Shown here: piece after piece, positions 24,365 to 63,795 of the stretch
Layout: every line of letters starts with the position of its first letter
Position numbering within the stretch: position 1 is the first letter of the stretch
Origin: Magnolia sinica
Lineage: Eukaryota; Streptophyta; Magnoliopsida; Magnoliales; Magnoliaceae
Assembly (NCBI RefSeq): GCF_029962835.1
Contig: NC_080583.1
Location: 71,905,158 to 71,969,157 of the forward strand
Length of the DNA stretch: 64,000 nucleotides
Reading direction: 5' to 3'
The notes under the pieces: model-generated
Seen by the model: the letters and a program-made list of their open reading frames with translations, nothing else
What the model was told of the DNA's origin: nothing
Databases searched by the model: none
Translations under genes and position numbers: made by a program

Positions 24365-25365
24365 GAGTTTATGTAGTAATTTATTTTAATATTGCTACGT
24401 ATTGTAATAGTATACGTTAGGTTTTAAATTTTTTTTTATTGCGTATATCTTTTAACGGAATGAGAGTTTAGCGTACCGAGTAAAACATGTGGGGTCCATT
24501 GTGATTTATGCATTTTATCCACTCCGTCTATCATTTTAATGGATAATTTTATTGCATGAGCTAAAAAATGAAGAACACAGGAAAGTTCAAGTGGACCAAA
24601 CCATAAGAAACAGTATGAATTGAACGTCTACCATTGAAAAATTCTTCCAGGCCATAGAAGTTTTGGATCAAGCTGATATTTCTGTTTTCCCTTTAACCAG
24701 GTCTTTGTGATCTTATGAACAGGTTGGATGACAAATAAACATCACGATATAGGAAGGTTTCATTAGTGGAAATCATTATTCCCAGTGTTTCCTGTGGTAT
24801 GGTTGACTATATCTTTTGATATACTTCAATTTTGGGTTGAATAACTAAAATGATATGGAAAAACGGATGGACGGCGTAGATAAACAAAATACATTAACGT
24901 TGGCCAAAATGATTTTACTCAGAACGATAGGAGCATACAGAGTAATTCAGTTAGCAATCCGATTTGGTCTCTAACAAAAGCCTTTCGCACGCATTAAGTT
25001 CTTAGGTTGGGTCCACTTTGATATTTTTGAGAAATCTAATTCGTCCATCCATTTTATGACCTCAATTTACGACTTGAGACCAAAAGTGAGCATGATCCAA
25101 GACTCAAGTGGGCCGCACTAAAGGAAAAGTTGGGTAGGGATATTTCTACCCTTAAAACCTCTTTGGGGTCGACAGTGATGTTTAAATGCCATCTATACCG
25201 TTCATAACGTCATTCATACTTGGATGAACTGAGAACATAAATATTACCCTGATTTAAAAAATTTTGTGGCCCCACAAAATTTTAACTGTGTTTTCAACAC
25301 ATTTGAGTATTGGATCCAGCTCATTTTTTGTCTCATGTCCTAAAATCATGGAGGGCCCTAACTAT
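24365..25365. other. protease upstream region, no gene seen
   Basis: Upstream of the candidate TATA box lie dispersed words typical of this genome (GTGGGCC, CATTGTGGTGGGCC-like) and no gene. It ends where the gypsy LTR begins. Confidence 0.45.
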
Positions 25366-26476: not shown

Positions 26477-28348
26477 ATGGCGAAAGGGAGAACGAAATCC
26501 CAAACCGCTGCTGCTACACCCAGTCCTACACTGCAGAACAGTTTGTGAACTATTAGGACTTAACTTCCCAACTTCAGGCTGATTGTGCACCCGCGGGGAG
26601 GTCGTCTTATCTCCTTGGAACAGCAAGTTGAAGCACTGACCAATAACATTGATCAGATAAGGTAGATGCTAGAGCGACAGAATCCTCCTCACAACCCGAG
26701 GGCTGAGGAGGTTGCTGGTTGGGTAACCACTAAAGTTTCTACACCATCTCAAGCACATGTTAGCTCCTAGAGGAACAAACAAGCCTATGAAGTACAGAGA
26801 TGCCAACCTTCCTACGCTTCAGGCACTATCATGTTGGCTGCCTCCGACATACATCATGCGCTAGAGAAGAAGAGGCGTGGTAAGGCTCCTAAGACAATGG
26901 CCGCTCCCGAGATGGTGGTTGAGATCGAGGACCCCTGGGAGGCTGAACTTAACAAGATACAAGGTTAGATTGGCGACATACAACAGGCCTATTGTGCGCA
27001 TGCTCCGACCTTGATAGAAGCTATGTTGGAGGAAACTAAGCCACCATTCACCGACGATATCATGCAAGCTCAGCTCCCGCCCAGATTCTGGATGTTGCAT
27101 ATTACTCCTTATTCCGGGGCCATCAACCCGGCAGAGCATCTAGAATCTTTCAAGGCGTGGATAGATCTTCATGGTGCCTCGACCGCAGTGACGTGCCGAG
27201 CATTCTCCTTAACTCTATTAGGAGCATCTCAGAAATGGTTTCGGCAATTGAAACCACGGTCCATCAGCTCATTCACACAACTCAGAAAGGCCTTCATTAC
27301 CAACTTCATCAAAGGAAAAGAAAGGCGAAAGCCAACAACTCACCTCCTCACCATCACTCAGAAGGAAGACGAGTTTTTTTTTTTTAATAGAGAAATTGAT
27401 TTTGTATTCATACCAAAAGGAACTAGACAGGGACTAGACAGATTCGGGCTCCCACCCAAAAAAGCAGGGGAGCTTATCATATGACTATGCATTAAAACTA
27501 GCCCTCACTAATACCCCTACTGATATTATATTCATACCAAAAGGAACTATACAGGGACTAGATAGAGATTCGAGCTCCCACCTGAAAAGAAGGAAGACGA
27601 GTTGTTGAAGGATTACATCAAATGCTTCAACCTAGAGGCAATGCAAGTGGAGGGATATCCAGATCAGATCGCCCTAACCGCTATGATGGCCTGCCCGAAG
27701 GAGGGAAGATTCCTCTTCTCTCTCGGCAAGAATCCCCCGAAGACATTAGTTGATCTCCTTAATTGAACTCAGAAATACTCCAATGTCGAAGAGCTTTTTA
27801 GCTCGCGAAAAGCCACCAGGGGTGGAGGAAGCTCGACCAGGGAGAAATAGCTTAAGGAAGAGCAAGCATCAGCTCCTAGAAACAAGTGTAGAAGGCACGA
27901 TGATCCAACCAAGGGTCAATGTTCGAGTAGACAACTAGAGAGTAGATTCCTCTCTTACACTCCCCTCAACGCTACGCCCGATCAAGTCCTCATGGAAGTT
28001 CAGGACAAACGAATCCTCAAGTGGTCAAACCAGATGAAGACTGACGCCGATAGGTGGGATAAAAGGAAGTACTACCACTTCCACCGCGATCATAGCCATT
28101 CCACCAGTGATTACTTCTACCTTAAAGAAGAGATCGAAGCTCTCATCCGCAACGTACATCCATGGGAGTATGTCAGTAGGAGGGAGGAATGGTCAGATCA
28201 AAAGAACGAGCAGCCCAGCAATGACAACAATAACGAGGCTACAGGAGAAATCCGCACCATCGTTGGTGGGCCTGTGGGACGAGGAGACTCTAACCGAGTA
28301 CACAAAGCTCATGCTCGGAGCATCAGCCATGACATTTTGGAACATTAA
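26477..28348 (+). pseudogene. gypsy gag, broken
   Basis: The start region MAKGRTKSQ is followed by a stop after about 23 codons. The best-preserved part (27011-27375) has the Retrotrans_gag pattern: PFTDDIM, PPRFWM, PYSG..NPAEHLESFKAWI, then AFSLTLLGASQKWFRQL and F..LRKAFITNF. A 212-bp retroposon splits KEDE from ELLKDYIK (27376-27587). The C-terminal part reads HFHRDHSHSTSDYFYLKEEI.ALIR, the usual gag region ahead of the protease. Several frameshifts and stops make it non-functional. Confidence 0.85.
27376..27587 (-). mobile_element. 212-bp retroposon (SINE or truncated LINE 3' end) in gag
   Basis: Flanked by a perfect 16-bp duplication of gag sequence, AGAAGGAAGACGAGTT, at 27360-27375 and 27588-27603. 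The plus strand opens with a T run, i.e. a poly(A) tail on the minus strand. The body contains two imperfect copies of a segment of about 55 bp, each starting CATACCAAAAGGAACTA. Too short to say whether it is a SINE or a LINE remnant. Confidence 0.85.
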
Positions 28349-28380
28349 GTCCACCTCACCTGCAGACCTCTAAAGGAACA

Positions 28381-28760
28381 AAAGGTAATCCCTTGTGAGC
28401 TGACATTTACCAAGTAGGACTCCCGAAGAATCCATCATCCCCATGATGATGCACTAGTGGTGGCCATAACCATAGCCAACCACAAAGTGTTCCGAATTAT
28501 GATAGACACTAATAGCTCGGCCGACATCCTCTTCACCGACAATTTTGACAAAATGGGGGTTAGAAGGTCCCAACTTTGACCTATCAAGACTCCTCTGCTC
28601 AGATTTGTGAGAGACAAAGTCACCTCCGAGGGATCCATACTGCTCCCGGTCACTACAAGAGAGGGACAAAATCAAACGACGATGATGATCGACTTCCTCA
28701 TGGCTGACTATCTTCCATCTACAACGTCATCCTCGGACAACCTTCCCTCAACGACATGCC
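28381..28760 (+). pseudogene. gypsy protease, first copy, broken
   Basis: Reads RRIHHPHDDALVVA, then VFRIMIDTNSSADIL at the active site where relatives have D-G/N-G/S-S-S, then DKMGV and MMIDF. In-frame stops interrupt it (for example after FTK and before PIKTPLL). The CACTA transposon lies some 170 bp downstream, separating it from its RT. Confidence 0.75.
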
Positions 28761-28933
28761 AGCGATAGCATCAACATACCATCTCATAATGAAGTTTCCA
28801 ACCGAGCATGGTGTCGAGTAGGTCAAAGGGAATCAGCAGGAAGCTCACAAGTGCTATTCTACGGCTTTAAGGATACAGCATCGCATGATGGCCATCACTT
28901 CCCTTGATCCCCGGGAAGAGTTAGTTGAGAGAG

Positions 28934-29462
28934 CACTACGCCAAAACTGCAAAAAAAGGACGGTCCAAAACTGTCTCAAATGACCAAAAAGGACGGTCAT
29001 GGACTGTGGCAAGGGCCGTCAAATTTTGACGTGTCGTATTACTTAAAGGACGGTCGAAAACCGTCATTTTTATTGACGAAAAAAGGATGGTCATGGACCA
29101 TCCTAAAAAAGGACGGTCGTGAACCGTCCTTAAAAAGGACGGTCTTGGACCATCTCTTATGAGCCTTTAAAGGACAGCCATCGACCGTCCTTTAAAAGGA
29201 CGATCATGAACCGTCCTTAAAAAAGACCGTCGTAGACCGTCTCTGATAAGCCTTCAAAGGACGGCCATAGACCGTCCTTTAAAAGGACGGTCATGGACCG
29301 TCCTTAAAAGGGACTGTCATGAACCGTCTCTTATAGGCCTTCAAAGGATGGCCATAGACCGTCCTTTAAAAGGACGGTCATGGACCGTCCTTAAAAAGGA
29401 CTGTCATGGACCGTCTCTTATAGGCCTTCAAAGGACGGCCATAGACCATCCTTTATAAGAGG
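28934..29462. repeat. CACTA-1 left terminus and subterminal palindromes
   Basis: Repeated hairpin units of the form AAGGACGGTC-ATG-GACCGTCCTT. A larger period of about 86-90 bp is marked by GCCTT(T/C)AAAGGA(C/T)(A/G)GCCAT near 29162, 29251, 29337 and 29423. In CACTA elements such subterminal repeats bind the transposon-encoded TnpA-like protein. Confidence 0.85.
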
Positions 29463-29479
29463 GTCAATATATATATTTC

Positions 29480-29700
29480 ATTGTATTCTTCCTGATATAC
29501 ACCTGTTATATAATAATATTTCATCATATTCACATTCACATCCATCTAAACAACCCAAACTACGTAAATCCAACATAAACTACATTCATCCAAATATAAA
29601 CTACATTCATCCAAACACAAGCAATCTTATCCACATTACATTCATCCACACATAAATACATATAAGTTTAACATCATAAATAAAAAAAGAAAAAAAATCA
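29480..29700. repeat. linker shared with the second CACTA element
   Basis: TCCTGATATACACCTGTTAT, TTTCATCATATTCACATTCA, CATCCA.., TACGTAAATCCA and ACATATAAGTTTAACATCAT occur here and in the same order at 60115-60300. In both elements the linker lies between the left subterminal repeats and the TTTAGG array. Confidence 0.85.
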
Positions 29701-29840
29701 GCAACAATGTTCTTTGTGTGTCTTTCACCTGAAAAAAAAATATTAAACCAACAAAACATTATAATTCAGAATCATGAAGAATTGCATAAACTTCTTCCAA
29801 AAAAGCGGGCACTTTTTAAAAATAAAACTGATCATTAAAA

Positions 29841-32800
29841 TAGGTTTAGGTTTAGGTTTAGGATTAGGTTTTAGGTTATAGGTTATAGGTTATAGGTTAA
29901 AGTTTTGGTTATAGGTTATGGTTTAGGTTTAGGTTAAGGTTTAGGCTTAGGTTATAGGTTTAAGTTAAGGTTTAGGTTTTAGTTATAGGTTATAGTATAT
30001 AGGTTATAGCTTTAGGGAATTGAGAATAGGTTAAGGTTAAGGTTTAGGTTTAGGAAATCGGGTTCGAGTTCGGGATCAAGTTTAGGTTTGGGTTATCAAG
30101 TTTAGGTTAGGGAGTTGAGATTAGGATTAGGTGTAGGTTTAGGTTCAAGGATTTGAGAATACATTTCGATTTTAGGTTTAGGTTTAGGTTTTAGGCTTAT
30201 GTTTAGGTTATAGGTTTAGGTTATAAGTGCAGGTAATAGGTTTAGGTTTATGTTAGGTTATAGGTTAAGGTTTAGTTTTAAGAAATCGAGTTTGGGTTCG
30301 GGATCGGGTTTAAGTTTGGGTTTTCAAGTTTAGGTTTAGGTTTAGGTTAGGGAGTTGAGATTAGAATTAGGTATAGGTTTATGTTTAGGGATTTGAGAAT
30401 ACATTTCGATTTTAGGTTTAGGTTTAGGTTTTAGGCTTATGTTTAGGTTATAGGTTTAGGTTAGGTTATAGGTTAAGGTTTGGGTTTAGGAAATCGGGTT
30501 CGGGTTCGGGATCGGGTTTAGGTTTAGGTTTTCAAGTTTAGGTTAGGGAGTTGAGATTAGGATTAGGTGTAGGTTTAGGTTTAAGGATTTGAGAATACAT
30601 TTAGGTTTTAGGTTTAGGTTATAGGTTATAGGTTTAGGTTTAGGTTTAGGTTAAGCTTTAAGTTTAAGTTTAGGTTTAGGTCATAAGCTATAGGTTTAGG
30701 GAATTGAGAATATGTTAATGTTTAGGTTTAGGAAATTGGGTACGGGTTCGGGATCGAGTTTAGGTTTGAGTTTTCAAGTTTAGGTTTAGGTTTAGGTTAA
30801 GCTTTAGGTTTAGGTTTAGGTTTAGGTCATAAGCTATAGGTTTAGGGAATTGAGAATATGTTAATGTTTAGGTTTAGGAAATTGGGTACGGGTTCGGGAT
30901 CGAGTTTAGGTTTGAGTTTTCAAGTTTAGGTTTAGGTTTAGGTTAAGGAGTTGAGATTAGGATTAGGTGTAGGTTTAGGTTTAGGGATTTGAGAATACAT
31001 TTAGGTTTTAGGTTTAGGTTTAGGTTATATGTTATATGTTATAGGTTTAGGTTTAGGTTTAGGTATAGCTTATAAGCTATAGGTTTAGGGAATTGAGAAT
31101 AGGTTAAGGTTTGGGTTTAGGAAATCGGGTTCGGGTTCGAGATCGGGCTTAGGTTTGGGTTTTCAAGTTTAGGTTTAGGTTAGGGAGTTGAGATTAGGAT
31201 TAGGTGTAGGTTTAGGTTTAGGGATTTGAGAATACATTTAGGTTTTAGGTTTAGGTTTAGGTTATAGGTTACAGGTTTAGGTTTAGGTTTAGGTTAAGGT
31301 TATAGGTTATAGGTTTAAGTTTAGGTTTAGGTTATAAGCTATAGGTTTAGGGAATTGAGAATAGGTTAAGGTTTAGGATTAGGAAATCGGGTTCGGGTTC
31401 GGGATCGGGTTTTGGTTTGGGTTTTCAAGTTTAAGTTTAGGTTTAGGTTAGGGAGTTGAGATTAGGATTAGGTGTTGGTTTAGGTTTAGGGATTTGAGAA
31501 TACATTTAGGTTTAGGTTTAAGAAATCGGGTTCGAGTTCGGGATCGGGTTTAGGTTTGGGTTTTCAAGTTTAGGTTTAGGTTTAGGTTTAAGAGTTGACA
31601 TTAGGATTATGTGTAGCTTTAGGTTTAGGGATTTGAGAATACATTTAAGTTTTAGGTTTATTTTTAAGTTATATGTTATAGGTTTAGGTTTAGGTTTAGG
31701 TTAAGGTATAGGTTTAGGTTTCGGTTTAGCTTATAAGCAATCGGTCTAGGGAATTGAGAATAGGTTAAGGTTTAGGTTTAGGAAATCGGGTTTGGGTTTG
31801 GGATCGGGTTTAGGTTTAGGTTAGGGAGTTGAGATTAGGATTAGGTGTAGGTTTAGGTTTAGGAATTTGAGAATACATTTAGGTTTTAGGTTTAGGTTTA
31901 GGTTATAAGCTATAAGTTTAGGGAATTGAGAATAGGTTAAGGTATAGGTTTAGGAAATCGGGTTGGGGTTCGGGATCGGGTTTAGGTTTTGGTTTTCAAG
32001 TTTAGGTTTAGGTTTAGGTTAGGGAGTTAAGATTAGGATTAGGTGTAGGTTTAAGTTTAGGGATTTCAGAATACATTTAGGTTTTAGGTTTAGGTTTAGG
32101 TTATAGGTTACAGGTTTAGGTTTAGGTTGAGGTTTAGGTTAAGGTTTAGGTTTAGGCTTAGGTTTAAGTTATAAGATATAGGTTAGGGAATTGAGAAAAG
32201 GTTAAGGTTTAAGTTTGGGAAATCGGGTTCGGGTTCGGGATCGGGTTTAGGTTTGGGTTTTCAAGTTTAAGTTTAGGTTTAGGTTAGGGAGTTGAGATTA
32301 GGATTAGGTGTAGGTTTAGGTATAAAGATTTGAGAATACATTTAGGTTTTAGGTTTCGGTTTAGGTTATAGGTTACAGGTTCAGGTTTAAGTTTAGGTTA
32401 AAGTTATAGGTTATAGGTTTAGGTTTAGGTTTAGGTTTAGGTTAAGGTTCTAAGATATAGGTTTAGGGAATTGAGAATAGGTTAATGTTTAGGTTTAGAA
32501 AATCGGGTTCGGGTTCGGGATCCGGTTTAGGTTTGGGTTTTCAAGTTTAGCTTTAGGTTTAGGTTAGGGAGTTGAGATTAGGATTAGGTGTAGGTTTAGG
32601 TTTAAGGATTTGAGAATACACTTAGGTTTTAGGTTTAGGTTTAGGTTATAGATTTAGGTATAGGTTAGGTTATAGGTTAAGGTTTAGGGAATTGAGAATA
32701 GGTTAAGGTTTCGGTTTAGGAAATCGGGTTCGGGTTCAGTGTCGGGTTTAGGTTTGGGTTATCAAGTTTAGGTTTAGGTTTAGGTTAGGGAGTTGAGATT

Positions 32801-33464
32801 AGGATTAGGTGTAGGTTTAGGTTTAGGGATTTGAGAATACATTTAGGTTTTAGGTTTATGTTTAGGTTATAGGTTATAGGTTTAGGTTTAGGTTTAGGTA
32901 TAGGTTTAGGTTTTGGTTGAGGTTATAAGCTATAGGTTTAGGCATTTGAGAACAGGTTAAGGTTTAGGTTTAGGAAATCAGGTTCGTGTTCGGCATCGGG
33001 TTTAGGTTTTGGTTTTCAAGTTTAGGTTTAGGTTTAGGTTAGGGAGTTGAGATTAGGATTAGGTGTAGGTTTAGGTTTAGGGATTTGAGAATACATTTAG
33101 GTTTTAGGTTTAGGTTTAGGTTATAGGTTACAGGTTTAGGTTTAGGTTTAGGTCAAGGTTATAGGTTATAGGTTTAGGTTTAGGTTTAGATATAGGTTTA
33201 GGTTTCAGTTTAGGTTATAAGCTAGAGGTTTAGGGAATGAGAATAGGTTAAGGTTAAGGTTTAGGAAATCGGGTTCAGGTTCGGGATCGGGTTTAGGTTT
33301 GGGTTTTCAAGTTTAGGTTTAGGTTTAGGTTAGGGAGTTGAGATTAGGATTAGGTGTACGTTTAGGTTTAGGGATTTGAGAATACATTTAGGTTTTAAGT
33401 TTAGGTTTATGTTATAGGATACAGGTTTAAGTTTAAGTTTAGGTTTAGGTTATGGTTTAGGTTT
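29841..33464 (+). repeat. telomere-like TTTAGG array, part A
   Basis: Degenerate TTTAGG hexamers with TTATAGG, TTAAGG and occasional TTTAGGG variants. A higher-order unit repeats at about 200-270 bp and is marked by GGAGTTGAGATTAGGATTAGG, GGGATTTGAGAATACATTT, GAATTGAGAATAGGTTAA and AAATCGGGTTCGGGTTCGG. Runs of consecutive canonical TTTAGGG heptamers were not seen. The array is internal to the CACTA element. Confidence 0.93.
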
Positions 33465-36400
33465 TGTCACGCCCCGTACTCAGAAACCGGGCTCACAAAA
33501 TTCCCGATCGCCGAATCCGGCGCCGACAGCCTCCGTAGAACCCCATTCTCGGACCCCGGCGCCCATTCACCAGGTTCCGATCCTGTGAGACTACAAGGAG
33601 GATTTCAAATCATCAGTCTGAATCATAATGAGCATAACAAAAGCATAACCCACAAACAATAACCACAAGAACACCACCACAAAATCCACTATGATCAAAA
33701 ACTTTTTAGTACATGCGGCTGAAAGGGGAAAATACAATGTAATAAAAGAAACAAAACTCCAGAAGCTCGGCTGCACGCTCCAACTACAGCGAGACTATGG
33801 CTGCGACTGCGTCCTGGCGTCACCTGCACGCATCAATCGTGCATAAGCTTATGGAAAGCTTAGAGGGTGGTGTAAGTGTGTGCGTAATATAAACATACTC
33901 AAAATGCAAGGGCAGAGTGATGCGGAATCATGGTGATGAGTACATGAATGCAAATTGCCGTACCAAGGCTATGCGGTGCAAGATATGAATGCTATCGGCC
34001 ATACACAGCCATGCGATGCGAGATGCAACTCAAGCATGCCAATCCTCATCATGTATCAGTACAGTTCTCATTCTGGATAATCACCGGGGTTCAATACACT
34101 CCAAATGGCACTGTCGCTCTCCTAGCCGCACAGTCCAAGTGAGCGTAAGAAACCTCACTATCCGCCTGGCCAATAGTCTGCCAATACCTATCCGACATGT
34201 CAATAGCGGACCCATTCGCGAGCTAGTCAAACTCAGCCTAGTATTGCCTCCTACCCTCAGGCGAGTAAGGCCACACCCCTTTCCAACCGACCACGACACA
34301 GTGGGAGACGCGGCCTCCTCATATTTAGCCCTCGTGCACTCATATATCCACTCAGTCTCGACATTGGAGTTATCCTCTGGTACCATCGGGTTTAGGGATT
34401 TTCACCTAGGGACATCTATGGTGCCCCGATGCTTAGTGACAATATTTTCGGTATCCAATCCAGCCACCCATGATGTGTCTGTGGAGGCTATAGTCCTGAT
34501 GTCACTAGGGCATACAGTAATCACAATCATATTAATGCAAGTGCATGAATCATACTATCAGTCATGCAACAGCCCTGTATATACCATGCACTTATATGAG
34601 ACAACTCCGCCTATCAGGGAGCCCATAAACAGTCTATCCAAGGTAAATGCTATGATCGGTCATTCCTCACATCAGGCATACATATGGTGCGAATGATCAT
34701 GAATCATGCATCTATACTAAACATGTAATAAGAGATGGGTTCTAGGTATAATGGAGATGGGCCTAGACGGCCTACTTACCACAAGTTTGGGCCTATCAGT
34801 GGGCCTTAGGGAGAGTTATAATGCGGACATTTAACCAACATTATCAATGTGGACGTCAAACCAGCATTGCTCCCAAGGCGTGGCCCGTTACAAATTCAAT
34901 ACATATATCATGGTGGAATTACACTACATTGGGCCTTATGTATGTCCTATGGGGCCTTGACCCGTGGGCCTCTAATACATCAAATGGCCTCATACAAGGG
35001 TCTCACAGATACATATCAAGGTGGGCCTCAATGACGGGCCAAAATTGTATCAACATGGGCCTAGTCACACGGGCCTTGCATACATTACAGAGGGCTTATG
35101 CAATTTAAGGTGGGCCTCAATAATGGGCCTAAAAAAAATTAATTTTCAAGGTGATTGAATGATTGGATGAAACACACGTATCATGGTGGGGCCCACACTA
35201 AAGGAGGGTGTGGATTATCATACATATATAAGTGGGTCCCGTGTGGGGCCTACCATAATGTTTATTTCCTATCCAACCCATTGATAAGGTCACTCAAACT
35301 TGGGGCCACAATAATGTTTATTTTCCACCCCAACCTGGCCCACTGAAATGTTTATTTTCTAATCAACCTGGGCCCATTGTAATGTTTATTTGCCATCCAA
35401 TTCCTCATAAGGTCATTTAGGCCAGGTAAGGCCCACTGTAATATTTATTTTCTACCCGACCTTTTGATAAGGTCACACGTGACCTGGGCCCACATTAATG
35501 CATATTTACCACACAACCCGTTGGTCACGTGCACCTGGGGTAGGGCACACTTGAATGGGCCCACTGAAATGTTTATTTTCCGTACAACCTGCTCACACAG
35601 GCCACGTGGTGAAGGGCCCACCGCAATGTTTATTTCTCATCTAACCTGTTGAACAGGTTACGCGGGCAGGGAGCCCACTGTAATATATATTTGACGTCGA
35701 ACCTGTTGGTAAGGTCATTGGACCTTTGGGCAGATGTGGGGCCCACCGAAATGTGGTTCACAAATCCAGCCCATCCATTATGTGGGTCCCCTCTAAATGA
35801 CGGTACAGACCAAGTTTAAGCAACATCCAAAACTCAGGTAGGCCCTGCCAAATGATTTTATATGTTTTAGGTATGTCTTCACATGATTTTAGATGGTATG
35901 GCCCACCTGAGTTCCGTTTATGGCTGATTTTTGGGGTGAACGGGTGGTCCATGGGGACCCATCAAATGCACGGTGTTGATCAACGAAACACATCAAAGTG
36001 GGGCCCACAGCTGGGGCCGTGAGCCCCAGCTCGTCCGTCCGTCAGCAGCCGTACGGCATGGCGCTGCTGCATCCCTTCTATTCTTTTTTTTTTTTTTGAA
36101 ACAAAGTTTTTCTGCGGATTTTCTATGATAGGGCCCACTTCAGTCCGATCCGTCCCAGCCACAGGATTCTACGACTCAAGATCGACGAAACGAGACCAAT
36201 ATGCAATGTGTTGTTGGCGGATGGAAGGATCAAAGTGGATTTCAATGGTGATACGTCTGTTTCTTACGGCATGGCCCGCTTGAGAACCGGATTGGTTCCA
36301 AAATTTAGCTCAACGTCTAAATTAATCCAAGGAAGAGGATAGACGGATTAGATCAAATACTTGAATCAAGGTGGGGCCTATATGAATGGTCCACCCTAAA

Positions 36401-37509
36401 GGTTACCTTTTTCTCCCTTTTTTTTTTTAGTACACACCCATGCCACTTGCCAACGTCCAGCGTCCAGGGACGCTGGACGGCATACACAGATGTATCATTG
36501 GGGTGGGTCCCACGTAGATGTGGCCCACCAACATATATGCATATAAATAATATATATACATTATATTATATATATAATACATATTATATTATATATATTA
36601 TATAAAATATAACATATATACATATATTTATATAAATACATTAGGTCCATCCAAACAATGGATGGTGTGGATCATTACCTGCAATAGAGTAGGCCACACC
36701 GTCTGGTGTAGATGGACGGGGTAGATGTAGCACATATTGGTGGGATCCACACCATTACAAAGAGGGAAAGAGAGAGATAAATGGAGATATACGGTGAGAT
36801 AGAGGAACCCCCGCCACTATGGGCCCTCTTGATTAGATCACATACATCCAAATGGGTCCCACCAACAAGTGGGCCCTAAAATTTAAAATAATGGAAAATC
36901 ACCCACCTTATCTTCCTTCTCCTTGCTCCCTTGGACTCCTTAGCTCCTTACCTTCACTTTTAATGGAGGATGATGGGGGATTAATGGTGTGGATGAGAGA
37001 TGAGAGGGTGTAGATGGAAGATGGAAGGTGGACCACACTTGAGAGGGAGATGGGAGCTTGGACGTTTGAGGCTTGGGGGTTGCTTGGAGAGATAAGAGAA
37101 ATGAGAGAGAGAGGGGTGATAAGGATGGGTGAGGTGAAAGGAATGGTGGACTTTTGGAAAAAGAGGGAATGGGTGTAGTACTTGATGTATGGGATGCATT
37201 AAATGTTGATTGATGGGACTTATTATGTAGAGATTCCCTCGAAATTCGCAACGCGCGGTGTTTCTTCGGAATAAACGCTGATCGGCATCTTCTTACCTGG
37301 GTATTGGTTCGGTGCGCAAGTCACGGCGTTGGAACCGCGGCGACAACGCGGTCGCTATGATACAACTTTTGGATTAAGCCGACGTCGGTGCACGGGACCT
37401 GGCTTAGGATCATGCGCAAACACCGAATAGTGTGCGAAGGTTGCCGAAATTTGACCGGAAGAACCGCGGATGCTAACGGAATGGTACGGATTAGGACACG
37501 GGTCTTACA
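33465..37509 (-). mobile_element. probable 4.0-kb solo LTR inside the array
   Basis: The interruption starts TGTCACGCCCCG and ends GGGTCTTACA (TG...CA), with GGTTT on both sides; inside a repeat array that duplication is weak evidence alone. Read on the minus strand it opens TGTAAGACCCG, like many plant gypsy LTRs. No internal domain, primer site or second LTR is present. It includes GGGCCC-rich sequence (34740-36000), an AT/TA-rich block (36540-36640) and no credible gene. Confidence 0.7.
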
Positions 37510-40500
37510 GGTTTAGGTTTAGGTTATAAGATATAGGTTTAGGGAATTGAGAATAGGTTAATGTTTAGGTTTAGGAAATCGGGATCAGGTTCGGGATCGA
37601 GTTTAGGTTTAGGTTAAGGAGTTGAAATTAGGATTAGGTGTAGGTTTAGGTCTAAGGATTTGAGAATACACTTAGGTTATAGGTTTAGGTTTAGGTTATA
37701 GATTTAGGTTTAGGTTAGGTTATAGGTTAAGGTTTAGGGAATTGAGAATAGGTTGAGGTTTAGGTTTAGGAAATCGGGTTCGGGTTCAGGATCAGGTTTA
37801 AGTTTGGGTTTTCAAGTTTAGGTTTAGGTTTAGGTTAGGAAGTTGAGATTAGGATTAGGTGTGGGTTTAGGTTTAGGGATTTAAGAATACATTTAGGTTT
37901 TAGGTTTAGGTTTAGGTTATAGGTTACAGGTTTAGGTTTAGGTTTAGGTCAAGGTTATAGGTTATAGGTTTAGGTTTCGGTTTAGGTTATAAGCTATAGG
38001 TTTAGGGAATTGAGAATAGGTTAAGGTTTAGGTTTAGGAAATCGGGTTCGGGTTCAGGATCGGGTTTAGGTTTGGGTTTTCAAGTTTAGGTTTAGGTTTA
38101 GGTTAGGGAGTTGAGATTAGGATTAGGTGTAGGTTCAGGTTTAGGGATTTGAGAATACATTTAGGTTTTAGGTTTAGGTTTAGGTTATAGGTTACAGGTT
38201 TAAGTTTAGGTTTAGGTTAAGGTTATGGTTTAGGTTTAGGTTCAGGTTATGGTTTAGGTTTAGGTTATAAGATATAGGTTTAGGGAATTGAGAATAGGTT
38301 AATGTTTAGGTTTTGGAAATCGGGATCGGGTTCGGGATCGGGTTTAGGTTTAGGTTAAGGAGTTGAGATTAGGATTACGTGTAGGTTTAGGTCTAAGGAT
38401 TTGAGAATACACTTAGGTTATAGGTTTAGGTTTAGGTTATAGATTTAGGTTTAGGTTAGGTTATAGGTTAAGGTTTAGGGAATTGAGAATAGGTTGAGGT
38501 TTAGGTTTAGGAAATCGGGTTCGGGTTCAGGATTAGGTTTAGGTTTGGGTTTTCAAGTTTATGTTTAGGTTTAGGTTAGGGAGTTGAGATTAGGATTAGG
38601 TGTATGTTTAGGTTTAGGGATTTGAGAATACATTTAGGTTTTAGGTTTAGGTTTAGGTTATAGGTTACAGGTTTAGGTTTAGGTTTAGGTCAAGGTTATA
38701 GGTTATAGGTTTAGGTTTAGGTTTAGGTATAGGTTTAGGTTTTGGTTTAGGTTATAAGCTATAGGTTTAAGGAATTGAGAATAGGTTAAGGTTTAGGTTT
38801 AGGAAATCGGGTTCGGGTTCGGGATCGGGTTTAGGTTTGGGTTTTCAAGTTTAGGTTTCGGTTTAGGTTATAAGCTATAGGTTTAAGGAATTGAGAATAG
38901 GTTAAGGTTTAGGTTTAGGAAATCGGGTTCGGGTTCGGGATCGGGTTTAGGTTTGGGTTTTCAAGTTTAGGTTTAGGTTTAGGTTAGGGAGTTGAGATTA
39001 GGATTAGGTGTAGGTTTAGGGATTTGAGAATACATTTAGGTTTTAGGTTTAGGTTTAGGTTATAGGTTACAGGTTTAAGTTTAGGTTTAGGTTTAGGTTT
39101 AGGTTTAGGTTTAGGTTATGGTTTAGGTTTAGGTTATAAGATATAGGTTTAGGGAATTGAGAATAGGTTAATGTTTGGGTTTAGAAAATCGAGATCGGGT
39201 TCGGGATCGGGTTTAGGTTTAGGTTAAGGAGTTGAGATTAGGATTAGGTGTAAGTTTAGGTCTAAGGATTTGAGAATACACTTAGGTTATAGGTTTAGGT
39301 TTAGGTTATAGATTTAGGTTTAGGTTAGGTTATAGGTTAAGGTTTAGGGAATTGAGAATAGTTTGAGGTTTAGGTTTAGGAAATCGGGTTCAGGTTCAAG
39401 ATCAGGTTTAGGTTTGGGTTTTCAAGTTTAGGTTTAGGTTTAGGTTAGGGAGTTGAGATTAGGATTAGGTGTAGGTTTAGGGATTTGAGAATACATTTAG
39501 GTTTTAGGTTTAGGTTTAGGTTATAGGTTACAGGTTTAAGTTTAGGTTTAGGTTTAGGTTTAGGTTTAGGTTTAGGTTATGGTTTAGGTTTAGGTTATAA
39601 GATATAGGTTTAGGGAATTGAGAATAGGTTAATGTTTGGGTTTAGAAAATCGAGATCGGGTTCGGGATCGGGTTTAGGTTTAGGTTAAGGAGTTGAGATT
39701 AGGATTAGGTGTAAGTTTAGGTCTAAGGATTTGAGAATACACTTAGGTTATAGGTTTAGGTTTAGGTTATAGATTTAGGTTTAGGTTAGGTTATAGGTTA
39801 AGGTTTAGGGAATTGAGAATAGTTTGAGGTTTAGGTTTAGGAAATCGGGTTCAGGTTCAAGATCAGGTTTAGGTTTAGGTTTAGGTTAGGGAGTTGAGAT
39901 TAGGATTAGGTGTAGGTTTAGGTTTGGGGATTTGAGAATACATTTAGGTTTTAGGTTTATGTTTAGGTTATAGGTTATAGGTTTAGGTTAAGGTATAGGT
40001 TTAGGTTTCGGTTTAGGTTATAAGCTATAGGTTTAGCGAATTGAGAATGGGTTAAGGTTTAGGTTTAGGAAATCGGGTTCGGGATTTGAGAATAGGTTTA
40101 GGTTATAGGTTTTGGTTAAAGTTATATGTTAAGGTTAAGGTTATAGGTTTAGGTTTATGTTAAGGTTATATGTTTAGGTTTAGGTTAGGTTATAGGTTTT
40201 TGGTTAAGGTTTAGGTTATAGTTATAGGTTTTGGGATTTGAGAATAGGTTTAGCTTATAAGTATAGGTTTAGGCTAGGTTATAGGTTAAGGTTTAGGTTT
40301 AGGAAATCGGGTTCGGGTTCAGGATCGGGTTTAGGTTTGGGTTTTCAAGTTTAGGTTTAAGTTTAGGTTAGGGAGTTGAGATTAGGATTAGGTGTAGGTT
40401 TAGGTTTAGGGATTTGAGAATACATTAGGTTTTAGGTTTAGGTTTAGGTTATAGGTTATAGGTTTAGGTTTAGGTTTAGGTTTGGTTTTGGTTTTAATTT

Positions 40501-41868
40501 AGGTTATAGGTTATAAGTTTAGGTTAAGGTTTAGGGAAAAGTAATAGGTTTTGATTTATGTTATAGGTTATAGGCTTAGGTTTTAGGTTTAGGTTTAGGT
40601 TTTGATTTATGTTATAGGTTATAGGTTTAGGTTAAGGTTTAGGTTTAGGTTATAGGTTTTGGGATTTGAGAATGGGTTTGTGTTTAGGTTATAGGTTTTG
40701 GTTATAGGTTATAAGTTTAGGTTAAGGTTTATGTTTAGGTTATAGGTTTTGGGATTTGAGAATGGATTCGGGTTTAGGTTATAGGTTTTGGTTTTGGTTT
40801 ACGTTATAGGTTTTGGGATTTGAGAATGGGTTCGGGTTTAGGTTATAAGTTTTGGTTTTGGTTAAGGTTTAGCGTATAGGTTTTTGGATTTGAGAATGGG
40901 TAATGGTTTAGGTTTAGAAAATCGGGTTCAGGTTCGGGATTGGGTTTAAGTTTGAGTTTTCAAATTTATGTTTAGATTTAGGTTAGGGAGTTAAGATTAG
41001 GATTAGGTGTAGGTTTAGCTTTAGGGAATTGAGTTTAGCTTATAGGTTTAGGGAAAGCTTAGGTTTAGGTTATAGGTTTTGGGATTTGGGAATAGTTTTA
41101 GGTTATAAGTATAGGTTTAGGTTAGATTATAGGTTAAGGTTTAGGGATTTGAGTTTAGGCTATAGGTTTAGGTTTAGGGAATTGAGTTTAGGTTATAGGT
41201 TTAGGGAAAGGTTAGGTTTAGGTTATAAGTTTTGGGATTTGAGAATAGTTTTAGGTTATAAGTATAGGTTTAGGTTAGGTTATAAGTTAAGGTTTAGGGA
41301 TTTGAGTTTAGGTTATAGGATTAGGATTAGGTTTAGGTTATAGGTTATAGGTTTAGGTTTAGGTTTAGGTTTAGGTTTAGATTATGGGTTATAGGATTTG
41401 AGAATGCGTTCGGGTTTAGGATATAGGTCTTGGTTTTGGTTATATGTTTTGATTTAGGTTTAGGTTATAGGTTTAGGTTTTAGGTTAAGGTTATAGGTTT
41501 AGGTTAAGGTTTAGGTTTAGGTTTAGGTTTAGGTTTAGGTTAAGGTTATAGGTATAGGTTAAGGTTTAGGTTTAGGTTTAGGTTTAGGTTATAAGATATA
41601 GGTTTAGGGAATTGAGAATAGGTTAAGGTTAAGGTTTAGGTTTGGGTTCAGGATTGGGTTTATGTTTGGGTTTTCAAGTTTAGGTATAGGTTTAGGTTAG
41701 GGAGTTAAGATTAGGATTAAGTGTAGGTTTATGTTTAGAGATTTGAGAATACATTTAGGTTTTAGGTTTAGGTTTAGGTTTTAGGTTAAGGTTTAGGTTT
41801 AGGTTAAGGTTGAGGTTTAGGTTATAGGTTAAGGTTTTAGGTCATAAGTTTTGGTTTAGGTTAAGGGT
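37510..41868 (+). repeat. telomere-like TTTAGG array, part B
   Basis: Same hexamer and higher-order unit as 29841-33464. Some stretches are near-identical duplicates of each other, for example around 39000-39400 and 39470-39860. Toward 40100-41860 the order decays into TTATAGG/TTTTGGGATTTGAGAAT variants. Open frames here encode only repetitive Tyr-Arg-Phe peptides. Confidence 0.93.
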
Positions 41869-41879
41869 ATGGTCCCTAC

Positions 41880-42550
41880 AAATACAAATATAAACACGGC
41901 CATCCGGCGCAAATGGTCAGGCCCTTCCAATGCTGTCCATAAAAAATGGACAGCTTTATCCTGGTCATAATAGCGGTTCCCTCTTTCCAGGGAACCCCGC
42001 TCTTTCGAATAGCTCCGACGCACATCCGGGTCTGCTCCATTAATTTCGATCAAATACATAAACACGGCATGTCCAAATGGCCAGGCCCCTCCAATACTGT
42101 CCATAGGAAATGGACAGCTTCATCATGGTCATAACAGCGGTTCCCACCTTCAAGGGACCCCCGCTCAACATCCGGATAGCTCCGACACACATCTGGGTCT
42201 GCTCCATCAATTTCGAGTTAATACATAAACATGGCCTGTCCAAATGATCAAGCCACTCCAATGCTGTCCATAGGAAATGGACAACTTCATCATGGTCATA
42301 ACAGCGGTTCCCACCTTCCAGGGACCCCCGCTCAACATCCGGATAACTCTGACGCACATCCGGGTCTGCTCCATCAATTTCGATTAAATACATAAACATG
42401 GACTGTCCAAACGGCCAGGCCACTCCAATGCTATCCATAGGAAATGGACAACTTCATCATGGTCATAACAGCGGTTCCCACCTTCTAAGGACCCCTGCTC
42501 AGCATCCAGATAGCTCCGACGCACATCCGGGTCTGCTCCATCAATTTCGA
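41880..42550. repeat. 167-bp tandem repeat, four copies
   Basis: The word TCTGCTCCAT recurs at 42031, 42198, 42365 and 42532, a constant 167-bp spacing. Each unit also has GGACAGCTTCATC..GGTCATAA..AGCGGTTCCC and GACCCC(C/T)GCTC. The period is not a multiple of three, so overlapping open frames on both strands are not taken as genes. Confidence 0.9.
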
Positions 42551-42751
42551 GCTAATACATTGAAAAACAACATAATTATATCTAAAAGCATCTGGATACC
42601 TAGAGAAGGCCTCCCATATTCGTATTGTTGGTTACTCATCCCTTTGTCTATAAGCCACAATCGACCAACACTTTCTATTGCTACCTGTACTCTGAAACCA
42701 ACACAAATATAACTGGGAAACAATATAAGGAATAAGAAAAAATGAATTTAC

Positions 42752-42813
42752 CTGTACACATCATTAAATGTTTCCTTATAAGGAGGTGATATTATATCTT
42801 TGATAGCCACAAC
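42752..42813 (-). pseudogene. captured MAP-kinase exon fragment
   Basis: A 62-bp exon-like piece between AG and GT encodes VVAIKDIISPP then YKETFNDVY. This matches the plant MAPK stretch AIKDII.PP....FNDVY near the end of the N lobe. The acceptor sits where plant MAPK exon 2 begins (from memory of the family), while the donor cuts the exon short before ELMDTDLH. No other kinase motif was found nearby, so this is a fragment and not a gene. Confidence 0.65.
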
Positions 42814-43076
42814 CTGTATGACAGAGAAAAATGCAACTGATACAGTCTGTTACAATTCAAAGAAGAAAAAAGATTTGTGGTTGCACCAATATTCTAGGAC
42901 ATTACGAACGGCTGCCTACATACCCAAAAAGTCAGATTGGGATCAAGCCACTACGTAGTTCTTTTTAATTAACCCAAGTTACTAAAGGTCATAAATTTCA
43001 TATTTAACAAAGTATCATTAAACATCGTCTCAAATCGTTTCTGGTTGGTGCATTTAAAAAAATTCAAATACACGTT

Positions 43077-43255
43077 TGGGTTTAGGTTTGGGTTTTCAAG
43101 TTTAGGTTTAGGTTTAGGTTAGGGAGTTGAGATTAGGATTAGGTGTAGGTTTAGATTTAGGGATTTGAGAATACATTTAGGTTTTAGGTTTAAGTTTAGG
43201 TTTTAGGTTATAAGTTAAGGTTTAGGTTTTAGGTTTAGGTTAAGGTTAGGTTTAG
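43077..43255 (+). repeat. short TTTAGG array fragment
   Basis: About 180 bp with the same higher-order words (GTTGAGATTAGGATTAGG, GGGATTTGAGAATACATTT) as the main arrays, separated from them by the 167-bp repeat and the kinase fragment. Confidence 0.9.
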
Positions 43256-44080
43256 TACAGTACATGTACATCAAGAAAACATTTACTAAATAAAAAATTT
43301 TCAATTTATCAGTAAGGTCCAATTTATTAGTCAGATACATCCAGCTAGACCAAATACTGCTTCTTTTTTTCTAGATTGAAACAGGGTAGATAGTTGATGA
43401 TCTTTTCATATATAACCAATGTGACATATGGAGAGATGGACTTACAATTATGCCATGTGCCTCACTCAGACATCTCCTAACAAATTTTCTTTCTAATACA
43501 ACAAAAAAGCTCATCACTTGTCCATCCTCTGTTCATGAAACAAAATGAAGGTTCTTCTTGAAACAATGCTGGGTTTCAAAATCAATTTGAAAACACTATA
43601 TATAAGCGTGTTTTGCATAAATGATAAAAGCCATATATATAAGATCTTAATGTCACCAAAGAATATATCAAAATCAATTTGAAGGCATTGTGGATAAGTG
43701 CATTTTGCAGATAAGTATGATAAAAGGGTGTGAAATACCTACAGAGACTGTCCAGACATCACACGAACATATCATGACAGTTTTACATTCAAATAAACCA
43801 TTCCATTCATCCATCATATAGATGGATCTCAACTATAGCTAGTAATGAAGGCATGCACATTCAGTTCCAAGTAATCATATACAACAAATATATAGGAGAC
43901 CATATGTACCTGCATATAACATAGTGGTAAGAGTAATGGAAAAGAAGTAAAACTAGTAATTAGCAATCCCATGAAATAGGACACCCTTCTACAACATAAA
44001 AACTCACTTTCTTTTATAAGAAAGTGTGTGTGAGATACAGAGATAGGATATATACCCTAGAGAGCGAGAGAGAGGTTTAC

Positions 44081-44308
44081 CTTGAGAACTGCTATAAACA
44101 TCTCCCTTAAACTGCACTTCCTGAACCAACGGACACTCACACACCCTTCCACGGAATGTATCCTGAAGAAACAAAGCAACTATCAGCATACATGGAAACA
44201 TCTCAACTTGTATGCTGGGCTAATTGTACCCTTTAATACCTTGCAACCAGTAATGTTGGCAACCTCGTCTTCCCAACAACCACCATTATAGTTCAAACAC
44301 TCATTTTT
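44081..44308 (-). pseudogene. captured vacuolar sorting receptor exons (EGF-like region)
   Basis: Two exon-like pieces with AG/GT borders. 44308-44240 reads KNECLNYNGGCWEDEVAN and ITGCK. 44162-44081 reads DTFRGRVCECPLVQ then EVQFKGDVYSSSQ. They match the plant VSR/BP-80 pattern NECLDNNGGCW...ACKDTFRGR.C.CP...GV.F.GDGY. The phases join (K to D). The GDGY motif is changed to GDVY and a following Cys is lost. The protease-associated domain, transmembrane segment and tail are not recognisable, so this is a fragment. Confidence 0.75.
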
Positions 44309-44595
44309 CTGAATTTTATGAACTGACACCATTCATTTGAAAATTTAGCTGAAAATAAAATATAAAAACAATAGAAAATGAGATGCAAAAAATCTGATCT
44401 AAGGCATGCATTTGTACATTTAATGATTCTACATGTATTCCAACCATCCACACTCAAAAGAAGAAGAAAATTTTGGTAAGCTTCTTTCAAACTTAAAATC
44501 TTGGTAAGCTTCTTTTGAGAACTATATCTGAAACTCCAGAAAAGAACTTCCTAAAAGAATTTTAGAAAACTCCACCAAGAACTATTTATCTGGAT

Positions 44596-44838
44596 CTATG
44601 AAAGAACCAAAAAAGAGAGATCATGACCATCTAGTTCCCTAGAAAGCATGAAACAACTCACAATGCCATTCCCTTCAAAATATGGGTGCTTTGAATAATC
44701 CAGTGGGCTATGTTGTCTGATGGAATTTGTAGTCATAAGATGTGAAGACTTTGAAAAAAGGCTGCCGGAAGTGATAGATGATAGATGGAGTAGGATATAA
44801 AGGAAACTGAAAGTTTTCATAAAGAATCTGGTTCCCAT
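44596..44838 (-). pseudogene. possible decayed first exon of the same VSR
   Basis: An 80-codon frame starting with a signal-peptide-like stretch (MKTFSFLYILLHLSSITSG) followed by FSKSSHLMTTNSI. This weakly resembles the N terminus of plant VSRs (RFVVEKSSL.VTSP.SI). Its position just upstream of the VSR EGF-like exons on the same strand supports the link. Similarity is by eye and low. Confidence 0.35.
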
Positions 44839-45585
44839 GCATCATCTACCTCTCATATACCAATCTCCCATATAAGAATATACTCAGTTAATTAATACTC
44901 ATGCACCAACATTGATCATGGACTAGTTGCAAATGAAAGGTTAGCAAATATGAGAAGCATATGAGAAATAGCTGCATGTTGAACACATTGAATATGCAAA
45001 TTTTAGCATGATAAATTTATCATGGTCGATAACTTCAAATCACCCACACAATCAAAAGCTTATCTTAAGACCATAGCAGCTAGTAAATTCCTTCAATCTC
45101 ATGCTGTCAATAAATTTTAGTTTTTTAAAATCGCTGTTTAGATAAAATTACATGCTCCATTCCATTGTTATTCATTCATCATTTTGATTAAAAAAATTGA
45201 GACCCATATTTTGAACTGTAATTGTACATAACAATTGGAAGTTGAAAGAGGCCCAAATATAACAATGATGATACTTTGAATTGAGTGGGCCCCCAAATAA
45301 ATAGACCAGTCTCCTCAAATTGCACAGATTGGATTATCCTACAGATCCAATTGGCGAGCTTTTCCAATGCTGTAATCCATTTAGAACTCATCAGATAGGA
45401 TAGATAAGACAACCCAATTGGTGATATCATCTACAGAGGCCCGACCACAGTAGAATCCATCCCACAAACGGTTCAGGTGCTAATGGTGTCCAATGCAAGT
45501 GTAGTGCAGCAGTCATGGAAATTCATGCCATGCAATCCAACCAGATTTTGTCTAATTTAAAATACCATAGTTCGAGTGAACTCAC

Positions 45586-46180
45586 AATCATTGATGCCGG
45601 CAAGGGCCATCAAGCAAAAAATAACTTCTCACTCCTCTACATCCTGAAGGGCCCTCGCATATGCCTCATCACTATCAAACGCTGACGGGTCGATCTCCAC
45701 ACCCAATTCATCCTCACTCGGGGCCCGTCCATGCACATCGAATGCATCTTCACGATCATCAATGCTCCCAGCATCATTCCCATCATCATTCGGATCATCA
45801 CCAGCTTCAGCTTCATAAACATAACTACCACTATCAGAACTTCCATAACCACTTCCATCACCGCCATTCATTCTAAGCATCATATACGCCCTTTCCTGGC
45901 CCATAAGCAACAAAACCCAATCAACAAAAAAGACAGAGAATGAAAGAAGGAGCTGATTCAAGAAAACCCAAACCCTAAACAGAATAACGGATCGAACCTA
46001 TTCTTGAAGTGTACGGGCAAGGGCCAGATCGGCATCAACTTGGCTGAGGCTGGTGAAGGGCGCGCGGGAAGGCTGTCGAGATGAGGGGATGGATTCGGGT
46101 TCCGGTTCGGACTCGGAGTTAGGGTTAGGGTTTTCTTCGTTGGGTTTGTTGCCATGGTTAGATTCTTTGGCGTTCTCCAT
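45586..46180 (-). pseudogene. captured 5' part of a BIG BROTHER-related E3 ligase gene, two nonsense codons
   Basis: Exon 1 (46180-45998) encodes an acidic Ser/Glu/Pro-rich start ending QVDADLALARTLQE. Exon 2 (45895-45586) begins ERAYMMLRMN and ends SDEAYARALQDVEE..LMALAGIND. This pattern fits the N-terminal half of plant BIG BROTHER-related RING E3 ligases. The last codon of exon 1 is TAG where relatives appear to have Gln. A TGA stands where Arg (CGA) is expected after DVEE. Both fit single C-to-T changes. The RING-H2 exons are absent. A CT-rich leader (46260-46310, minus strand) may be the original 5' UTR. Introns keep GT-AG ends. Confidence 0.65.
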
Positions 46181-46512
46181 GTAGATAAGAAAAGAGAGAA
46201 GAGAACCCTAAAGCTTGGATCAGAGAAAGAGATCGAAGGAGATGTGGGTTAGGGAACGGAGAGAGAGAGTGAGAGTGAGAGCGAGAGCGAGAGCGAGAGA
46301 GAGATTTGGGATTTGGGGGTTTTTTTGGGCGCGGCTCTATTTTTGAGCGCGCGCCCAAATTTAGGTCGTGATCAGTCCGGGCTCTGTGGGCCCTACCATG
46401 ATGCGTGTCAAACATCTACCCTATCAGTCAGATGCACCATCCCATGGTGGGCCCAGGGATTAAAAATCAAATCAATCTATTACTTGTGTGAGCCACACCA
46501 CATACAAAAGTT

Positions 46513-47186
46513 GAGAGGGGTTACCCTCCATTAAAACATTCATAACTATTTTTTGGGCCCACTGAGATGTGATTCACAAATCCAGCCCATCCATTATGTG
46601 TGTGCCACTTGGATGAGGGATCATATCAAGTTTCAAACGCATCCAAATTTCAGGTGGGGCCCACCAAGTGCTTTTATATGTTTTAGGCATGTCTTCACAT
46701 GATTTTAGATGGTATGGCCCCTCGGAGTTCCATATACGGCTGATTTTTGGGATATCCCATAATTTAAAAGGGACCCATCAAATGCACGGTGTTGATGTTT
46801 GACACATGTCATGGTGGGGCCCACACAGCTTGACCTCATGGGGACGGCTTGGATTAAACACAAAGGTCAAGCTGTGTGGGCCCCACCATAACATGTGTCA
46901 AACATCAACACCGTGCATTTGATGGACCCCCTTTAAATTATGGGATATCCCAAAAATTAGCCGTATACGGAACTTAGGTGAGCCATACCATTTAAAATCA
47001 TGTGAAGAAATGCCTACAACATATAAAAGCACTTGGTGGGGCCCACCTAAAATTTTTATGCATTTGAAACTTGGTCTGACTCCTCATCCAAGTGGGACAC
47101 ACATAATGGATGGGCTAGATTTGTGAACCACATCTCGGTGGGCTTAACAAATGATTTTGAATATTTTAATGGAGGGTAACTCCTCT
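46513..47186. repeat. long inverted repeat (hairpin) of the GGGCCCACC family
   Basis: Two arms of about 320 bp, centre near 46850. GGGGTTACCCTCCATTAAAA (left) pairs with its complement at 47160-47180. GTGATTCACAAATCC pairs with the complement at 47117-47133. GGGGCCCACACAGCTTGACC (46815) pairs with GGTCAAGCTGTGTGGGCCCC (46862). The arms are imperfect, so a transcript would form a miRNA- or siRNA-like hairpin. The arm sequence also occurs singly at 35735-35990, 47380-47500 and 48780-49060. Confidence 0.85.
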
Positions 47187-47339
47187 TTTTGGGATCAAGC
47201 CATAAAATCATCAGTAAAAATGGATGAACGGATAGGATGAAACACATACATTGACCTCCAGCCATGGGGCCCACAGAGCATCATCCAACATGTTCATAAT
47301 ATCAAAAAAATATGAATGAAGGGAAAACACAAACATCAG

Positions 47340-49070: not shown

Positions 49071-49369
49071 CATCAATTCTTAGGTTCTCACGAAGTCAGT
49101 AAGTTGGGTCACAATTCTAACCAGAATATTTGGCCCATTTTACATGTCTAGTCCATTCACTCTATTTTACTGATCAATACTCTCAATTTAACTAGTTACT
49201 CACCTCAATCATGCTACATATGAGAAAGATATTGGGCATACAAGATTGATCAACAATTTCAGTGAAATTTGATTTAAACATCTGAAGTTATTTACTCTTC
49301 AATTTGAACTGATTATATTGTCCAAAAACGATTAAAGGTTCAATTAGTAGATGTGCCTAATAATTTAGT

Positions 49370-50250: not shown

Positions 50251-50269
50251 TTAAAATTTGACCTGAGCA

Positions 50270-52289: not shown

Positions 52290-52380
52290 CCACATGGTTA
52301 TATCAGAAGAACGAGCAGCCTAACAATGATAACAACAACGAGGCTATAGGAGAAATCTGCATTATCTTCGTTGGGCCTAC

Positions 52381-59369: not shown

Positions 59370-59382
59370 ATACAAGAAAAGA

Positions 59383-60079: not shown

Positions 60080-60114
60080 TCTTTTTTTTTTTTTTTTTAC
60101 CCGTTCCAGCAAAA

Positions 60115-60300: not shown

Positions 60301-60302
60301 AA

Positions 60303-63791: not shown

Positions 63792-63795
<4 letters not shown>

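Follow-up and report, generated by a model that had tools for sequence, protein, structure and literature searches.

Within a 64-kb stretch of the Magnolia sinica genome (contig NC_080583.1; hereafter the window, to whose numbering all positions refer) lies E1, a CACTA transposon that carries an array of about 8 kb built on the telomere-like hexamer TTTAGG. We put at roughly three in four the probability that E1 is a Pack-type CACTA element bearing pieces of host genes, inside which a minisatellite of non-telomeric nature grew and was moved as passive cargo.

The limits of E1 were defined by its ends and by a copy of its insertion site that it does not occupy. The 5' terminus is CACTACGCCAAAACTG and the 3' terminus, read as the reverse complement, is CACTACGTGAAAAATG; the element thus has the terminal inverted repeats (TIRs) starting with CACTA and the 3-bp target-site duplication (TSD) of the CACTA (En/Spm) group. 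Short subterminal repeats at both ends, typical of CACTA elements, are present as well, and those at the left end are palindromic; a single-stranded DNA fold of 29070-29470 reached z = -14.79 relative to 100 shuffles. The sequence left of E1 (28189-28933) matches 52294-53037 in the same window at 84.2% identity and that to its right (50827-52289) matches 53035-54498 at 84.5%, with the two matched intervals overlapping by exactly three bases, the TSD GAG. By similarity, the host sequence is a retrotransposon, the right flank of E1 (51045-52300) matching a reverse transcriptase at E = 3e-7. The unoccupied paralogue and its 3-bp overlap imply that both ends belong to one element that was inserted as a unit. 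This confirms the claim of a first-pass annotation of this DNA that its TTTAGG arrays are bounded by a single CACTA element, and it contradicts the case which that annotation had named as refuting, a misjoin of two unrelated ends around an array; an assembly misjoin of the E1 ends was rejected.

TTTAGG occurs on the plus strand of array blocks A, B and C (Table 1) and not once on their minus strand; outside all four arrays of the window (52,946 bases), there are 20 sites on the plus and 27 on the minus strand. Blocks A and B together hold 437 sites; in 100 simulations under a first-order Markov model fitted to their own sequence, the mean count was 80.2 and the highest 102. Tandem Repeats Finder returned 6-bp rows at 29841-33464, 37601-41866 and 43074-43255, the start of block B at 37510 being set by the end of an inserted sequence (see below) and not by such a row. 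Counts and rows bear out the three dense arrays that the first-pass annotation had placed here; a fourth, array D, had been overlooked. G makes up 30-32% and C 1-4% of the plus strand of the arrays, and the longest pure TTTAGG tract spans 36 bp. The best-matching longer tandem units differ between arrays (146 bp in 2.7 copies in A, 461 bp in 2.6 in B, 365 bp in 3.1 in D), and units of 146, 221-291, 365 and 461 bp, with 88-93% matches, sit at different places in A, B and D next to weaker rows. In its make-up, the repeat is a TTTAGG(T) minisatellite whose longer units are irregular, and the scatter of these units points to repeated segmental tandem duplication, of which it is the usual mark.

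Blocks A and B are separated by a 4,045-bp sequence with TG...CA ends. Comparison of this sequence with itself revealed no pair of long terminal repeats (LTRs), the direct matches measuring about 100 bp or less, and a six-frame Pfam scan of 33471-37509 returned no domain at E 0.01. TG...CA ends, a TSD of 4-6 bp and no paired LTR are the features of a solo LTR, and the sequence is probably one, left by a later retroelement insertion. When A and B are rejoined across it, 55 of 60 bases at the junction agree with the array interior, a score that one in 500 random joins equalled; contiguous 60-mers of the array match the interior at a mean of 56.4 bases. Since an insertion with its own TSD (GGTTT) lies between A and B, the two form one array of ~8.0 kb, and the idea of two separate arrays was rejected. 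The approximately 8 kb of array that the first-pass annotation had seen inside the element therefore stand, whereas its first two blocks were not distinct.

To the right of the array, E1 carries pieces of host genes, all on the minus strand and still with introns. One of them, exons 1-2 of a BIG BROTHER-related E3 ligase with in-frame stops, is 95% identical over the whole query to an M. sinica protein (E = 4e-83). Exon pieces of a vacuolar sorting receptor (VSR), when joined, matched VSR1 (PDB 8r4y) at E = 2e-19, and a short mitogen-activated protein (MAP) kinase fragment matched MPK4 (PDB 7w5c) at E = 2e-4 over 20 residues, all three of its matches up to E 10 being MAP kinases 4 and 6. Block C sits between the VSR and MAP kinase pieces. 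Pfam scans named none of the E3, VSR and MAP kinase pieces. Nor did they find a transposase domain (Transposase_21 or TNPD-type) in E1 on the plus strand of 43258-50260, the minus strand of 41869-50260 without block C and both strands of 33471-37509, with 28934-29840, 50261-50826, the arrays and the plus strand of 41869-43257 lying outside the scan; E1 is accordingly taken as non-autonomous. Host gene fragments between CACTA ends are what defines Pack-CACTA elements, and E1 is in its structure a large Pack-CACTA-like transposon carrying three of them, non-autonomous as far as scanned.

A search with the E3 fragment returned 188 proteins; seven of the best eight are from M. sinica and lie on at least six contigs, distinguished by their lengths. 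One of them, P0002, passes from E3 to VSR sequence just as the window does, and a search with its VSR tail matched P0002 alone. By these matches, E1-type cargo is present at several places in M. sinica, and we infer that these places are copies of E1. The M. sinica BIG BROTHER-related-like E3 ligases among them (P0001-P0006 and P0008) are short, with 131-195 residues, and the annotated genes behind several of them may be fragments captured by transposons.

Array D consists of the same satellite as A, B and C and lies within what is probably a second CACTA-type element, E2. Only the left end of this element falls in the window. It carries a degenerate, TIR-like terminus, GCATACAAGAAAA, at 59368-59380, two edits away from CACTACAAGAAAA, which we take to be the classical CACTA terminus consensus. 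Behind it stand palindromic repeats that match neither end of E1 at E 0.01, followed by a flank that E1 and E2 have in common (identity at 166 of the 175 bases aligned, with another 46 columns being gaps). Thus, the elements share the array and its left flank and differ in their subterminal repeats, and the simplest reading would be that flank and array form a module which two sets of ends have come to precede. Between flank and array, E2 has a coiled-coil coding remnant that E1 lacks at this place. The E2 coding pieces did not show up as a known transposase, yielding only sub-threshold coiled-coil matches and one match, at E 0.87, with a family unrelated to transposases. Immediately to the left of the E2 terminus begins a frameshifted remnant of a reverse transcriptase; it speaks neither for nor against an insertion there, since its match sets in at profile position 8, near the domain start, and some 10 codons away from the presumed end.

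We further compared a 120-bp non-hexamer block common to D and A/B, using 28 copies picked from 95 matches. Mean identity was 0.940 between D and A/B (72 pairs), 0.919 within A/B (276 pairs) and 0.954 within D (3 pairs). The D blocks fall inside the diversity of A/B, suggesting that the array was probably already diverse when the E1 and E2 arrays separated.

Separately, the palindromic segment at 59385-60083 consists of 43-bp repeats with mirrored ends, AGACACTTTTACC..GGTAAAAGTGTCT. It is either the set of subterminal repeats of E2 or a small inverted-repeat element in its own right; for the latter, no TSD is visible at the segment.

Table 1. Features of E1, E2 and their surroundings in the window.
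Feature	Position	Strand	Remarks
E1, CACTA element	28934-50826 (21,893 bp)		TIRs CACTACG..AAAA at both ends; TSD GAG; unoccupied paralogue
Left TSD, GAG	28931-28933		Adjoins E1 5' end
Right TSD, GAG	50827-50829		Adjoins E1 3' end
Left subterminal palindromic repeats	29079-29466		AAAGGACGGTCATGGACCGTCC type; Tandem Repeats Finder: 29082-29466, period 87, 4.4 copies
Array flank common to E1 and E2	29489-29709	+	E2 counterpart at 60142-60316
Array block A, TTTAGG-type minisatellite	29841-33464	+	201 TTTAGG
TG...CA insertion, probably solo LTR	33465-37509		TSD GGTTT on both sides
Array block B, continuation of A	37510-41868	+	236 TTTAGG
Second internal tandem repeat of E1	41910-42560	-	Unrelated to TTTAGG array; Tandem Repeats Finder: period 167, 3.9 copies, 88%
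Captured MAP kinase exon fragment	42754-42813	-	AG before, GT two bases after
Array block C, small piece of A/B repeat	43077-43255	+	12 TTTAGG
Captured VSR exon pieces	44079-44314	-	EGF-like part; at least two exons
Captured BIG BROTHER-related E3 ligase, exons 1-2	45632-46180	-	With intron and in-frame stops
Right subterminal repeats	50271-50655		GAGACGGTC..GACCGTCTC type; Tandem Repeats Finder
Retrotransposon paralogue, E1 site unoccupied	52294-54498	+	84% to both E1 flanks; GAG overlap
E2, probably CACTA-type element (tentative)	59368-64000		Right end beyond window
E2 palindromic repeats	59591-60076		CCTACGAATATTTTCGTAGG type; Tandem Repeats Finder: period 43, 11.2 copies
E2 coiled-coil coding remnant	60305-60738	-	Possible last exon of a minus-strand gene; sub-threshold Pfam coiled-coil matches only
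Array D, same satellite as A/B/C	60771-63658	+	128 TTTAGG; 10 kb right of E1

As to how this arrangement came about, the array would have grown inside CACTA-type DNA by slippage and by unequal tandem duplication, with segments of some 150-460 bp copied at a time. Together with its left flank, it would then have ended up as a module behind two different sets of CACTA-type ends, those of E1 and E2. Transport of the array as passive cargo may have relied on an autonomous relative whose transposase acted on the ends, and the retroelement insertion, probably leaving a solo LTR, would have split it later. Of the three explanations offered by the first-pass annotation, the best fit is the satellite that expanded within the element; the later insertion, the second array-bearing element and the captured host genes had not been part of that account.

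Several points weigh against growth in place followed by passive transport. E1 is known as DNA from one copy, within the window. Here, a satellite that expanded in place is not distinguishable from an older one that was captured; for a comparable satellite of Chenopodium quinoa, the authors favour capture, in the relevant passages of their paper (PMC8978399). The 120-bp blocks are not clearly more alike within than between arrays (with three pairs within D), giving no sign of array-specific homogenisation. Given the degenerate left end that represents E2 in the window, to speak of two CACTA families is tentative. Finally, two short telomere-related motifs are enriched: TTAGGG occurs 75 times in the arrays compared with 28 times outside (both strands, 52,945 bp), and GGTTTAG 425 times in the arrays.

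Capture would mean that a pre-existing genomic satellite was taken up by CACTA elements as gene fragments are, through gap repair after excision or joint mobilisation of neighbours. That pieces of at least three host genes reside in E1, with block C lodged amid two of them, speaks for such a process, as does the preference of the C. quinoa authors. Set against this, both array sites of the window lie in CACTA-type DNA (E2 tentatively so) behind the same left flank, and the window, a small sample, holds no free-standing array. We regard capture as possible, if not the account we would choose.

A role for the array as intron is unlikely. Under this proposal, it would lie in an intron of a minus-strand transposon gene, where it might affect splicing or expression or be tolerated by being spliced out. 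The E2 array does stand between two possible splice sites, a 5' site (..AAACCA/GTAAGT) that follows the open piece 63946-63999 and a 3' site (CATTGCAG) at about 60739, and the C-rich strand would be the sense strand in both elements; however, no domain match joins the two E2 pieces into one gene. A translated array stretch used as protein probe yielded 348 candidates, none of them at E 0.001.

The plant telomere unit, TTTAGGG, is TTTAGG plus one G, and this proximity, along with the uniform strand, is what recommends the view that the array is an interstitial telomeric repeat, now degenerate, which telomerase or telomere recombination had produced before its capture. In a legend of PMC10521516, TTTAGG and TTAGGG amount to ~2-5% within one interstitial telomeric array of Chenopodium iljinii. 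In the four arrays, TTTAGGG accounts for 50 of the 577 TTTAGG sites and no two copies are adjacent, so that the tandem TTTAGGG by which Arabidopsis-type interstitial telomeric repeats are recognised is lacking; in 42 of these 50, AATTGAG or ATTTGAG comes next, which places them in fixed motifs of the longer unit, TTTAGGGAATTGAG and TTTAGGGATTTGAG. A telomeric origin was rejected after TTTAGGG tandems and AAACCCTA teloboxes had been sought in the arrays and none found, and we hold it to be very improbable. Judged from its letters, the array is not plant telomere DNA and is telomere-like in resemblance only; the 'telomere-like' of the first-pass annotation is apt as a description of likeness, but short pure tracts, unpaired TTTAGGG and irregular longer units speak against telomeric DNA.

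The same annotation had proposed a telobox platform. In its fuller form, this holds that the array is kept as a binding site for telomere Myb proteins (TRB/TRP) that recruit Polycomb or heterochromatin to E1. The AAACCCTA telobox is missing from both strands of the four arrays (11,055 bp) as opposed to five occurrences in the 52,945 bp outside, which weakens the proposal, while the shorter motifs TTAGGG and GGTTTAG, enriched as stated, argue in its favour and leave room for weak telomere-protein binding. A plant Myb-like protein reportedly binds GGTTTAG repeats in vitro, to go by a title of Chen and colleagues from 2001. TTAGGG is given as the top predicted motif of Arabidopsis TRB chromatin immunoprecipitation sequencing in the pertinent part of PMC10049986. 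Binding of telomere Myb proteins to the array appears unlikely, a platform maintained for that purpose deserves very little credence, and most likely the array itself has no telomere function. An assembly artefact, with the array misjoined between two ends, is of practically negligible probability: short-unit arrays are error-prone in assembly and the exact array length rests on it, but the unoccupied paralogue with its exact 3-bp TSD, the insertion with a 5-bp TSD within the array and a second array with the same flank all contradict it.

Interstitial telomere-like blocks are often taken as traces of chromosome rearrangement or fusion. If the situation in E1 is general, such blocks within plant chromosomes would have a simple source in DNA transposons that take a satellite along and disperse it. 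A TTTAGG signal in fluorescence in situ hybridisation or k-mer counts is no proof of telomeric origin. E1 and E2 suggest that array, captured genes and CACTA ends are separable modules. One may go further and imagine the telomere-like module passing between CACTA families by end swapping, spreading over many Magnolia chromosomes and seeding interstitial blocks that weakly recruit telomere Myb proteins, a scenario that we consider a long shot.

Other repeats were observed in the window. Just inside the right subterminal repeats of E1, 49360-50260 is very A/T-rich (GC 0.21 in 49001-50000) and has a 155-bp tandem period according to Tandem Repeats Finder; the tandem repeat at 41910-42560 adjoins the MAP kinase fragment. 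A GTGGGCCCACC-rich repeat recurs, in matches of 50-300 bp and both orientations, within E1 (46531-49065), in the inserted LTR (35731-36009) and outside the element (24474-24894), and by this pattern it is a dispersed family resembling miniature inverted-repeat transposable elements. Far to the left, 1265-4358 and 7134-10262 form a 3.1-kb direct repeat pair with 89% identity, possibly the LTRs of another retroelement.

Among the matches listed by a literature search, titles and abstract openings gave no report of a TTTAGG array, whether from Magnolia or from within a CACTA element. Two papers with both telomere-like and CACTA terms, PMC3212565 and PMC6874827, do not link the two in the places covered (12 of 14 and 2 of 2, respectively), and the paper on the M. 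sinica genome (PMC10999834), word-searched in its main text, gave no hit for CACTA, telomer, tandem repeat, DNA transposon or TTTAGG. The first-pass annotation had called an array of this size inside a DNA transposon unusual, a judgement that is softened by published satellite arrays in CACTA elements (PMC8978399, in the sections on these elements), even if the telomere-like unit, the size and the sharing between elements set the present case apart.

Among known systems, plant interstitial telomeric repeats, as portrayed in parts of PMC10521516, resemble the E1 array in their short unit, G-richness on one strand and degenerate variants; the E1 array differs from them in having no TTTAGGG tandem, in its place inside a transposon and in its non-telomeric longer units. 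Known Pack-CACTA elements include ones that hold pieces of several genes, and from excerpts of PMC8903248 such Pack-TYPE elements are like E1 in joining non-autonomous CACTA ends with several host gene pieces; E1 is unlike them in that most of its length is array, nested insertion and other non-genic DNA. A third system is Jozin, a CACTA-like element of C. quinoa, for which the relevant passages of PMC8978399 describe a 16,523-bp element containing a 5,550-bp array of 171-bp units. The same passages place the satellite in CACTA-like elements of three further scaffolds as well and report captured gene fragments in Chenopodium CACTA elements; for another Chenopodium satellite, CACTA elements are cited there as the source, and a table of the review PMC9659126 lists it likewise. 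Jozin thus shares with E1 a kilobase-scale internal tandem array and captured gene fragments in the family and, if the tentative E2 is counted, a satellite present in several elements (two in our window). In contrast, the Jozin monomers are 97.7-98.8% identical between the consensus monomers of different elements, whereas the TTTAGG-based repeat of E1 is very degenerate; and the Jozin array lies near the 3' end of a 16.5-kb element with a transposase (PMC8978399, same sections), whereas E1 has its ~8.0-kb array near the left end of 21.9 kb, with no transposase found in the stretches scanned, and two differently ended elements carry the array (E2 again tentative). What appears to be new here is accordingly the telomere-like unit, the larger size and, as far as E2 can be counted, a flank and array common to elements with different ends.

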